Positions 11,852-15,444 of a stretch of 64,000 bases of DNA are shown here, one piece after another (the first letter of the stretch is position 1; the number at the start of each line of letters is the position of its first letter). Both the position numbers and the translations under genes were made by a program. The notes under the pieces were generated by a model. That model did no database searches. It was not told where the DNA came from and was given only the letters and a program-made list of their open reading frames with translations. The stretch is from contig NC_018068.1 in the NCBI RefSeq assembly GCF_000255115.2, positions 2,513,977-2,577,976 on the forward strand. The letters are read 5' to 3'. Origin of the DNA: Desulfosporosinus acidiphilus SJ4. Its GTDB lineage: Bacteria; Bacillota; Desulfitobacteriia; Desulfitobacteriales; Desulfitobacteriaceae.

Positions 11852-11880
11852 TTGTATTCAAATCCTCGATCAACTATAAT
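11852..11880 (+). promoter_or_regulatory. Promoter of the DUF5714 selenoprotein gene
   Basis: TTGTAT (11852-11857), a 17-base gap and a perfect TATAAT (11875-11880), 30 bases before the ATG at 11910. This supports transcription starting upstream of the in-frame TGA. Confidence 0.65.
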
Positions 11881-11909
11881 TGTGATATAAGCAGCGGGAG
11901 AGGAGCATT

Positions 11910-12713
11910 ATGATGGATATTAACAAAACAGCCTTCTCAGGTTCCAGCGATTGCTGAGGCAGTTCATCCAGTGTTGGTCAGCACAATGAAACTCAAACCG
12001 AGAACTGCCAAATTTGCGGAGGTCCATTAGAATATACCAATTCAGGGCGGGAACTAGCTTGCATTCAATGCGGCAAAATTGAAATAGCCAACATCTTCTG
12101 TCCCGATGGACACTATGTCTGCGATGAATGTCACGGAAAGGGCCTTTGGTCAGCTGTCAAAGACTTTGTTTTGAGTACCGACTCAACAAACCCTTTGGAA
12201 ATAGCTGAGTCTCTGATGACACAGCGTAATATACCTATGCTCGGTTGTGAAAATGCTTGGATTGCTGCAGGAGCTTTGATGGCAGCAATTAAGAATGAAG
12301 GGTCGATCAGGGTTACAAATGAACAAATTGTGGAATCCTTGAATCGAACGAAGAAACAAGCCATTGGAGGTTATTGCGGGCTGACGGGAGTCTGTGGAAT
12401 TGTTCCGGCTATTGGTGCCTGTTTTAGCGTCTTATTAGATGCGGCTTGTCCTAAAGACCAAGAAACGGCAATGACTATGAGAGCTGCTGGGAGAATTGTT
12501 GCAAGAATTGCTGATGAAACTGGTCCTTGTTGCTGCAAGAACTTTGTCAGAACCGGATTAAGTGAAGCGATCAATGTAGTCAAGGAGTATTTTGATATTG
12601 TTTTACCAGTACCCAGTAAGGCAATTATTTGTAACCACAGTTCGCGGCACCCTCACGGATGTAGAAAATCCAAATGTTCGTATTTTCAGATAAACGAAAT
12701 ATCCCAAAATTAA
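11910..12713 (+). CDS. DUF5714-family protein, probable selenoprotein with UGA-encoded Sec at codon 16
   Basis: The DUF5714 frame is open from ATG 11910 (good GAGAGGAG site) except for TGA at 11955-11957. It reads SGSSDC-(TGA)-GSSSS, a Cys-Sec-Gly redox-like motif. After the TGA there is no ATG, GTG or TTG until 12171, which would delete the conserved zinc-like cysteines (CQICGG, CIQCG, FCPDGHYVCDECH). The rest matches DUF5714: GGYCGLTGVCG, GPCCCKNFVRTGL and a Cys-rich C-terminus. A SECIS-like hairpin follows the TGA. With Sec the protein has 267 residues. The biochemical role of DUF5714 is not established. If the TGA is a true stop, this would be a pseudogene. Confidence 0.8.
11955..12009 (+). 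promoter_or_regulatory. UGA codon and bacterial SECIS-like hairpin
   Basis: The TGA (11955-11957) is followed at once by GGCAGTTC (11958-11965), which pairs with GAACTGCC (12002-12009). Inside, GTGTT (11971-11975) pairs with AGCAC (11980-11984) around a GGTC loop. An apical GGU loop about 20 bases after the UGA is what SelB recognises in known bacterial SECIS elements. Confidence 0.75.
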
Positions 12714-12728
12714 TAAATCATCTCTAAG

Positions 12729-12760
12729 ACCGCTGAACCTTTCTGGTTCAGCGGTTTGCT
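12729..12760 (+). terminator. Terminator of the DUF5714 gene
   Basis: ACCGCTGAACC (12729-12739) pairs perfectly with GGTTCAGCGGT (12745-12755), followed by a short T-rich tail. Confidence 0.7.
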
Positions 12761-12987: not shown

Positions 12988-15444
12988 ATGGGGATTAGAC
13001 TTAAGACATTTTTTGTCATTACTGCAGGTGCACTGGCCGTTGCTCTAGTTATGTTAGGTGCAATTAGAATGTTTTTAATCGATAACTTATTAAGTCAAGA
13101 AGATCAAATCATAAAGCAAAATTATAAAAGCATTTCTATTATGTTAAACTCAAGACAGAATTCTTTAAAAAGCACCCTCCTAGATTGGGCAAAATGGGAT
13201 GACACATTCAATTTTATCAGGGACGATAATCAAGCATATATTAATAACAATTTACAGAATTCAACATTTACTGATTTATCACTTAATATGATGATGTTTT
13301 TAAATAATGATGGAAAGGTTATTTACGCTAAAGGTTATGATCTTGAGAATGGTGTTAAAACTTCAATTGATTCAAGTATTATTAGTTACATCAATAAAAG
13401 TCAAAAAAAATTATCGGGTATTCAAGGAAATGACGTCCTTGCAGGCATGCTTATGGTTTCGAACCGACCTATGATTATTCTTATTTCCTCAATTACTCAG
13501 TCTAATGAGAAACCTCCTGCCGACGGCTATCTTATTATTGGGCAATACTTAGATAAAAGCTTCTTGAATTATCTGGATGATGTTACTCATGAGACCATAG
13601 ATATTGGAAGCGTTAATCCAAGCCAAGCAACACCCTCTGACGATGGTTTAGTTATTAAAAAAAGCCAAACCCTGATAATGGCTACTACCTATGTTAAAGA
13701 TCTTAATGGAAATCCGGATATTTCAATAACCATGAAGAGGGAAAGGAATATTTATGATCAGGGAATAAAAACTCTGAATTTATTTAGATGGGTGTTTTTA
13801 GCAGGATTATTTACGATAATCCTAATTTGCATACTCGTAATCGATCGAACGATACTTAAACGTCTGCGCAAGCTCTATAGTTTTGTCCACGAGGTAGGCA
13901 TAAGAAAAGACGTATGGTCAAGAATAGAACTTAGTGGAAAGGATGAAATCTCGAAGTTAGCGACAGCAATAAATCATATGCTTGAAGAAATTAAAATGGC
14001 TTATAAAGATATTGAAGAAGGAGAAGAACGATTCAGGTTAACAATGGAAGCGACCAATGATGGGTTCTGGGATCTGAGAATTGAGGATATGAATCTTTAT
14101 ATCAATTCTGAGTGGTTAAGGTTAGTTGGTGATGAAACTCTTGATCAGGACGACCTTTACAAAAAATACTTCCGCCCAGTTAAAGTAGATGAATCAACGA
14201 TCAATAATGCCTTAGATGAGTGTATTCGTGGGGACAAGGAATATTTACATGAAGAATACAGTGTATTCAAAAATAATGGCGAACAGATTTGGATCTTAAA
14301 TCGTGGTAAAGTCGTTGAATATGATTCTTCAGGAAAGCCTAAACGTGTGGTGGGGACTTTTTCAGATATTACTACGCAAAAACGGATTGAGCAAGAATTG
14401 TATATATTAAGTTATACTGATAAGTTAACCGGCCTAAAAAATAGAGCGTATATGGAGAAAGTACTTGAAAGTCTCGATGGATCCATAGAATCTAAATATC
14501 AAATCCTAATGGGGGATTTAAATGGATTGAAATATACTAATGATACCTATGGACATAATCAGGGTGATAAGTTATTGTGTCAAATTTCTGAGATCCTTAA
14601 GAGAAGTTGCTCAGTGAGTGATATTATCGCTCGTTGGGGTGGAGATGAATTTATTATTCTCATTAAAGATAAGGATCAATCGTATTGTCAAGAAATTATA
14701 AAAAAGATTAAAAGCGAATGTAGAAATATATCCCCGAATCTTCCTGTAAAATTAAGTATTGCAATTGGCAGCGCTGAAAAGAATGGTAATTACAAAAGTA
14801 AAGATATTATTAAAATTGCTGAAGAAAGAATGTACCAAAATAAACTTTTAGAAAGTACAAGCCTGAGAAGTTCAACGCTCTTATCCCTTGAAAGAACCCT
14901 TTTTGAAAAAGATCAAGAAACAGAAGAACATGCAGCGAGATTGAAAATTATGTGCGTGAAAATTGGTGAGGAAATGGGATTTTCGCAATACGAACTTGAT
15001 GAATTAGCATTGTTTGCAATGCTCCATGATATTGGCAAAATTGCGATTCCAGATCATATATTAATGAAACCGGACAAGCTCTCCGCTGAAGAGTGGGATA
15101 TCATGAAAAAACATTCGGAAATAGGTTTTCGTATTGCTGAGTCAACGCCGGAACTGTCGCATATCGCCAAATATATTCTTTCTCATCATGAACGTTATGA
15201 TGGGAAGGGATATCCTAATAGCTTAAAGGGCGAACAGATACCAAAGATGGCAAGAATATTAAGCATAGTTGATTCTTTTGATGTCATGACGAATACTAGA
15301 CCATACAAAGCTGCCGTTAGTGTTGAAGAGGCAATTGAAGAATTAAAAGCATGTTCGGGAAAACAATTTGATCCTGTTATTGTTGAAGTATTCCTAAAGC
15401 TATTGATGAACGGTAATTTAGTAGACAATAATATAACATCGTAG
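12988..15444 (+). CDS. CHASE4-HAMP-PAS-GGDEF-HD-GYP cyclic-di-GMP signalling protein
   Basis: An 818-residue membrane sensor. The N-terminal helix is followed by a periplasmic CHASE4-like domain (LLDWAKWDDTFNF, about 60-240), a second helix (~265-285) and HAMP. A PAS domain (~345-470) precedes GGDEF with an intact RWGGDEF (~548-554), then HD-GYP with LHDIGK (~677) and HHERYDGKGYP (~735). GGDEF makes c-di-GMP and HD-GYP degrades it, so both activities may be present and switched by extracellular and PAS signals. It is a single gene. The ATG at 12988 follows GAGGTAAGGGG. Confidence 0.9.
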   Translation: MGIRLKTFFVITAGALAVALVMLGAIRMFLIDNLLSQEDQIIKQNYKSISIMLNSRQNSLKSTLLDWAKWDDTFNFIRDDNQAYINNNLQNSTFTDLSLNMMMFLNNDGKVIYAKGYDLENGVKTSIDSSIISYINKSQKKLSGIQGNDVLAGMLMVSNRPMIILISSITQSNEKPPADGYLIIGQYLDKSFLNYLDDVTHETIDIGSVNPSQATPSDDGLVIKKSQTLIMATTYVKDLNGNPDISITMKRERNIYDQGIKTLNLFRWVFLAGLFTIILICILVIDRTILKRLRKLYSFVHEVGIRKDVWSRIELSGKDEISKLATAINHMLEEIKMAYKDIEEGEERFRLTMEATNDGFWDLRIEDMNLYINSEWLRLVGDETLDQDDLYKKYFRPVKVDESTINNALDECIRGDKEYLHEEYSVFKNNGEQIWILNRGKVVEYDSSGKPKRVVGTFSDITTQKRIEQELYILSYTDKLTGLKNRAYMEKVLESLDGSIESKYQILMGDLNGLKYTNDTYGHNQGDKLLCQISEILKRSCSVSDIIARWGGDEFIILIKDKDQSYCQEIIKKIKSECRNISPNLPVKLSIAIGSAEKNGNYKSKDIIKIAEERMYQNKLLESTSLRSSTLLSLERTLFEKDQETEEHAARLKIMCVKIGEEMGFSQYELDELALFAMLHDIGKIAIPDHILMKPDKLSAEEWDIMKKHSEIGFRIAESTPELSHIAKYILSHHERYDGKGYPNSLKGEQIPKMARILSIVDSFDVMTNTRPYKAAVSVEEAIEELKACSGKQFDPVIVEVFLKLLMNGNLVDNNITS

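Follow-up and report, generated by a model that had tools for sequence, protein, structure and literature searches.

A reading frame of Desulfosporosinus acidiphilus SJ4 that contains an in-frame TGA most likely encodes a selenoprotein (rough probability 0.85): the UGA at codon 16 would be read as selenocysteine (Sec) through SelB and a SECIS hairpin, and the product would be a short, single-Sec relative of the selenoprotein MbdU. We favor this reading because the frame, the Cys-Sec pair and the hairpin are conserved and purifying selection extends across the TGA. The gene lies in a stretch of 64,000 nucleotides, called the window here, and its features are collected in Table 1.

Table 1. Features of the gene and its surroundings (coordinates in the window).
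Feature	Position	Strand	Basis
Weak -35 element TTGTAT, 17-base spacing to TATAAT	11852..11857	+	read from sequence
Perfect TATAAT, likely -10 box	11875..11880	+	read from sequence
Ribosome binding site GGGAGAGGAG	11896..11905	+	read from sequence
Gene of probable single-Sec MbdU-type selenoprotein, 267 residues, Sec at 16	11910..12713	+	frame, profile matches, selection
TGA taken as Sec, codon 16 in Cys-TGA-Gly-Ser-Ser	11955..11957	+	sequence, homologs, selection
Putative bacterial SECIS hairpin, 5 bp, GGUC loop (11976-11979), 13 bases past the UGA	11971..11984	+	folding, covariation
Zinc-ribbon-like region (C33, C36, C51, C54, C64, H68, C71, C74, H75)	12006..12134	+	alignment A2
DUF5714 domain (PF18978), helical Cys-rich core	12156..12686	+	176 bits; structure model
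TTG, first ATG/GTG/TTG past the TGA, gene-finder start	12171..12173	+	ORF list gives 12171-12713
Hairpin past the gene, possible terminator, short T run	12729..12755	+	read from sequence
CHASE4-HAMP-PAS-GGDEF-HD signalling protein, downstream	12988-15441

A preliminary description of this DNA had proposed a DUF5714 frame that starts at the ATG at 11910, runs through a TGA as codon 16 and would be annotated 87 codons short, and the sequence confirmed each of these points. The frame opens with two ATG codons in succession and closes with a TAA at 12711-12713; rare start codons (ATT, ATA, ATC) are present from 12012 onward. Since the first ATG, GTG or TTG past the TGA is found at 12171, annotation from there drops 87 codons that include nine conserved Cys and His residues. 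These are invariant among the 43 sequences of alignment A2, and their pattern looks zinc-ribbon-like in our reading. A gene finder blind to Sec would lose both the candidate active-site pair and these nine residues, which resemble metal ligands; the relatives should suffer the same N-terminal loss for the same reason. The ribosome site reported before was also found. The promoter had been called good, which holds for the TATAAT but not for the -35 element; the latter matches at only three of six positions, and the pair is missing from the promoter scan for this reason. The hairpin behind the gene falls below the rule of the same scan, and no inverted repeats of at least 12 bases were found near the promoter or the gene end.

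Relatives of the gene were assembled as 93 distinct frames, taken from 80 loci kept of 136 and from a search of 82 genomes of the class. The TGA-bearing gene was detected at more than 330 bits in 22 of these genomes, and some match in 39. Desulfosporosinus is the source of relatives with up to 83% identity; genome G008, of the same genus, carries a copy identical to L010, from Desulfosporosinus acididurans. Cys-TGA is kept in 48 of the 59 distinct relatives with at least 45% identity, while six have Cys-Cys instead (L050, L051, L052, L054, L055, L071) and one has Cys-Ser (L059). The frames of L053, L058 and L061 are truncated or incomplete. L013, although 71% identical, is without the Cys-TGA; its usual N terminus sits in another frame, so that a deletion or frameshift has apparently occurred. 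Homologs starting without exception past the TGA had been named beforehand as an outcome that would speak against a selenoprotein; the alignment revealed no such pattern.

The arm is rare among more distant DUF5714 proteins (PF18978). Only one of the 34 relatives below 45% identity, L115, has a Cys-TGA before the zinc-ribbon region, and L063 has Cys-Cys there. No evident pair was found at this place in 31 of the 34, the CC of L078 being doubtful. L115 shares only 30% identity and carries MSKECUPQEGG near its start, without a clear hairpin after the TGA.

For codons 17-87, dN/dS values of 0.21, 0.24, and 0.12 were obtained against three of the closest relatives (L009, L090, and L091, respectively), compared with 0.14, 0.13, and 0.09 for the part after 12171. 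These values indicate that purifying selection acts on the codons ahead of the next ATG, GTG or TTG. By comparison with the relatives, translation appears to pass through the TGA, which has coding sequence on both sides as is typical of a selenoprotein gene. An ordinary stop or a pseudogene, with a peptide of 15 codons and a DUF5714 protein that begins at the TTG, would agree with what is directly visible, an in-frame TGA and an ORF listed at 12171-12713, and with the near absence of the arm from distant relatives, but is very improbable in view of the selection on codons 17-87, the nine invariant Cys/His residues and the Cys-TGA kept at the same place.

A SECIS-like element composed of an inner 5-bp stem with a GGTC loop and an outer 8-bp stem had been described directly after the TGA. 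The inner hairpin proved to be real, conserved and covarying. The outer stem (GGCAGTTC/GAACTGCC) is not conserved and was rejected as part of the SECIS: it pairs at eight of eight positions in the window and L009 and at seven in L090, whereas the score is 1-5 of 8 for the remaining 39 of the 42 sequences that could be measured, out of 47 in all. Across the relatives, a hairpin of 5-6 bp with a GGUC-type loop lies 12-13 bases 3' of the UGA.

The hairpin was analyzed in 47 Cys-TGA sequences including that of the window, which are distinct over 60 residues and score at least 100 bits; covariation was determined for 42 of them, as five with other spacing were left out. In these 42 sequences, 89.7% of the cells pair, five of the six pairs change on both sides, and 33 cells are double changes. 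Covariation amounted to 0.364 compared with 0.201 (sd 0.017) for shuffled sequences, a level reached by none of 500 shuffles, and the helix breaks when the arms are slid. The number of further pair types in the 42 sequences (9) was not above that in the shuffles (9.2). A stem of at least five pairs with a GG loop is present in 38 of the 47 sequences, as opposed to 10.8% of codon-preserving shuffles, and is absent from the region past the TGA in nine; none of 200 shuffled sets reached the observed mean over the 47. The window hairpin by itself is no stronger than chance, as 14% of codon-preserving shuffles equal it, and its fold z was 0.05 and 0.10 in two short stretches (plain folding overall gave 0.10 to -0.83). 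Over the family, the G-rich apical loop characteristic of a SECIS is found, conserved and with covariation. Four Rfam matches around the gene were all under the gathering score and were taken as chance.

The genome contains selA, selB, selC, and selD, the genes expected of an organism that inserts Sec; a lack of selB or selC had been listed as a further argument against the proposal. The tRNA-Sec gene selC scores 64.9 bits, and ARAGORN likewise calls a tRNA-SeC. Two more matches in this genome lie above the tRNA-Sec cut-off at 48-49 bits but look like tRNA-Ser. selA adjoins selD at G000:C3:3954377-3956962 (L121, L122), and since one in-frame TGA lies within the selD match, SelD itself is likely a selenoprotein. 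With a clear tRNA-Sec defined as one of at least 60 bits, a line set at a gap in the score list, 60 of the 82 class genomes have one: 20 of the 22 with the TGA-bearing gene and 40 of the 60 without it. No clear tRNA-Sec was found in the TGA-bearing G011 and G033, which are drafts of 970 and 250 contigs. Because 40 genomes without the gene also have a tRNA-Sec, the co-occurrence is weak evidence.

Decoding of the UGA as Trp or Cys, or plain readthrough, is hardly credible: the amino acid at codon 16 is predicted from the sequence, but the clear tRNA-Sec together with selA, selB, and selD, the covarying hairpin just 3' of the codon and the aligned replacements (Cys in six relatives, Ser in one, Trp in none) argue for Sec. 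The selenoprotein put forward in the preliminary description is thus supported by homologs with Sec or Cys at this position, by the hairpin and by the sel genes.

The window gene is a short, single-Sec variant of a family already known in a double-Sec form. The protein matches positions 5-272 of 468 of the NCBIfam model NF045648, "metal-binding double selenoprotein MbdU", with the Cys-Sec included. The score of 401.6 bits (403.8 from the genome) is under the curated cut-off of 600. In contrast to MbdU, the window protein is without the C-terminal DUF2284 half and the second Sec; as the match ends with the N-terminal half and the gene stops at 12713, it corresponds to just that half and has one Sec. 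Nothing else in this genome matched the N-terminal half of NF045648, and the two DUF2284 matches of the genome lie elsewhere and have no stop inside. Pfam DUF5714 is matched over its full length (176.3 bits, gathering score 26.2). The relatives L009 and L057 run on into DUF2284 with a second TGA and reach 789 and 805 bits with NF045648; DUF2284, described as "predicted metal-binding", was confirmed by Pfam in L009.

MbdU is listed with the motif CU and two Sec in a 2026 review (PMC13188914), where the source is given as Haft and Tolstoy 2025. This partly accessible review is the only relevant MbdU paper among the matches listed, and the word DUF5714 was not found in the literature searched. 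The preliminary description had called the selenoprotein hidden, which fits the short form but not the family, given its NCBIfam entry and its place in the accessible part of the review. With this gene recognized, a family known through a double-Sec member gains a single-Sec form that is widespread.

When the relatives were sorted by their reading frames, the short form with one Cys-TGA was the commonest, accounting for most of the 48. L022:3944-4843 is a short form with a C-terminal ECKTU tail and without an AhpD domain, and the partial L061 likewise ends in ECKTU. A DUF2284 part with a second TGA is present in L009, L057/L109, and L038. Fusions of DUF5714 with AhpD, which have three in-frame TGAs (the Cys-Sec arm, CEPUTQYC, and ECKTU), were found in L044/L104 (L044:3989-5119), L024/L103, L020 (L020:3962-5104), and L037. 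Their AhpD/CMD-like part was found by scan in L044 and L020 and, from sequence similarity, in L037 and L103; on the L044 and L020 fusions every NCBIfam model stayed below cut-off. Similar tails occur in the models of ArsM- or methyltransferase-headed selenoproteins, all matched below cut-off: NF041536 has a DUF2284-Sec tail like L009 and L057, and NF041537 and NF045649 have AhpD-Sec tails like L044 and L020, whose tails are like those of ArsM/AhpD and MduS selenoproteins. To judge by the names of these three models, a methyltransferase head stands where the MbdU relatives have DUF5714, whereas the window protein is tail-less. In L116, L118, and L117, DUF5714 ends open frames of 600-730 residues whose N-terminal part is radical SAM-like by eye; the scan covered the DUF5714 part of L116.

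The surroundings of the gene differ between loci. In the window, MarR and MFS genes lie upstream and the signalling protein lies downstream, with no metal gene among the flanking genes. No operon is conserved over all loci, and most neighbors differ. Metal ATPase-like ORFs are located near L021, L022, and L037 (judged by eye), and DUF2703, which is linked to arsenic operons, near L020. URO-D (L046) as well as RACo and CobW (L100) are neighbors in one scanned locus each, and similar-looking genes occur at a few further loci. A neighbor of L009 that resembled URO-D by eye was rejected, as no Pfam family matched it.

Because DUF2284 and AhpD-type tails, ArsR-type regulators, DUF2703 and metal ATPase-like ORFs are found in or near some relatives, we tentatively suggest, at somewhat less than even odds, that the product is a Sec-dependent redox protein handling metals or metalloids, a function deduced from the company that some relatives keep. 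The redox or metal chemistry to which the preliminary description pointed would agree with these observations. Once the ribosome has read UGA codon 16 as Sec, aided by SelB and the downstream hairpin, the protein would consist of a disordered N-terminal Cys-Sec arm, followed by the zinc-ribbon-like stretch of Cys and His residues and by the helical, Cys-rich core of DUF5714. The arm might pick up or reduce a soft metal or metalloid, or an organic form of it, and hand the metal(loid) or electrons on to the core. Re-reduction could be provided by DUF2284 or AhpD-like partners, which are fused in some relatives and would be unfused here.

The main rival is a genuine Sec protein that acts purely as a thiol-disulfide reductase, with a selenenylsulfide arm and no metal substrate, as is known for the arm of high-Mr thioredoxin reductase. 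We regard it as a real possibility, if a minority one. The adjacent Cys and Sec would sit on an arm (residues 9-22) with a pLDDT below 50 in the AlphaFold2 model, which was computed from 45 sequences and otherwise shows a helical core (mean pLDDT 88, pTM 0.85). The core appears related to C_GCAxxG_C_C (PF09719), described as putative redox-active: the Cys motifs of that family have counterparts in residues 160-211, and hhalign gave a probability of 70 (E 4e-5), while the Pfam score of 17.6 bits is below the cut-off of 27. The AhpD/CMD-like fusions likewise suit a reductase. The ArsR-type regulators, DUF2284 and DUF2703 in or near some relatives point to metals instead.

A DUF5714 core that is an Fe-S enzyme of the CyuA/L-serine dehydratase fold is improbable. 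Among the seven best structural rows, with Z of 5.0-6.7, CyuA came first at Z 6.7 (rmsd values of 4.7 over 143 and 4.4 over 138); the others were 2-methylcitrate dehydratases, at Z 5.1-5.5, and, at Z 5.0, L-serine dehydratase. We take all of these to be one fold. However, the tool itself calls Z below 8 common background, Foldseek gave no match with E below 0.5 in the PDB, and hhalign probabilities were 0.15 for SDH_alpha and 0.27 for CyuA, whose profile was built from two sequences only. With a best Z of 6.7 and no support from profile comparison, this fold was kept as a lead only. When profile A3 was searched against PDB sequences, the top match was a zinc finger protein (E 0.013), to which we attached no meaning beyond its Cys pattern.

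An ArsR-type gene is located upstream of the Cys-TGA gene in seven of 47 loci (L021, L023, L038, L041, L103, L104, and L109); in 46 of the 47, the sequence ahead of the mbdU TGA is 500 bases or longer. In all seven, the regulator frame meets a TGA after FY or YY and then continues in the ArsR pattern. The three regulators that were scanned exceeded the cut-off of 55 of the metalloregulator model NF033788 (70.5-75.6 bits), and the match extends to residue 81, past the TGA at or near residue 72; TsoR (NF045707) was their best or second match, below its cut-off. Seven regulators above 100 bits were detected in the 82 class genomes; all have the TGA, and six adjoin a Cys-Sec DUF5714 gene. The seventh, L128, adjoins a methyltransferase. 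A search of 398 genomes of the phylum added two more, both with the TGA. One of them, L158, is accompanied by a truncated Cys-Sec DUF5714 frame on the opposite strand; for the other, L159, none is in view. In the D. acidiphilus genome itself no TGA-bearing ArsR-type regulator was found, and three weaker ArsR matches are without a stop.

Past the regulator TGA, seven of eight distinct sequences form a hairpin that encloses TCTGGAAGA or TCTGGGAGA. In the eighth, L041, pairing at this place is possible, but the best fold is another one; L041 and L159 carry paired changes by eye. The regulator with its in-frame TGA and downstream hairpin is possibly selenocysteine-containing. Since the part past the TGA is short and its dN/dS variable (0.13 to 0.94 where measurable), a Sec regulator is a strong lead and not proof. 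If it exists, the regulator could sense a soft metal by its selenolate; alternatively, it could report the selenium supply, as the complete protein would be made only while Sec can be inserted. If proven, it would be a transcription regulator containing selenocysteine. A selenocysteine ArsR was not named in titles or abstracts among the matches listed, and "ArsR" was not found in the accessible parts of PMC13188914, PMC12013277, and PMC9312934; one regulator-like row, "putative regulatory protein, FmdB family", appears in that of PMC13188914. We would give close to even odds that the MbdU group commonly takes the short single-Sec form, beyond the reach of the present NCBIfam model, and that this form is part of a metal(loid) response built on selenium whose very regulator is a selenoprotein.

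Ten TGA-bearing regulators are on record (L021:3693-3974, L023, L024, L038, L041, L044, L057, L128, L158, and L159), and a Cys-Sec DUF5714 frame lies next to eight. Seven of these ten loci came from looking beside DUF5714, and the search of the 82 genomes, with six of seven, is the unbiased count.
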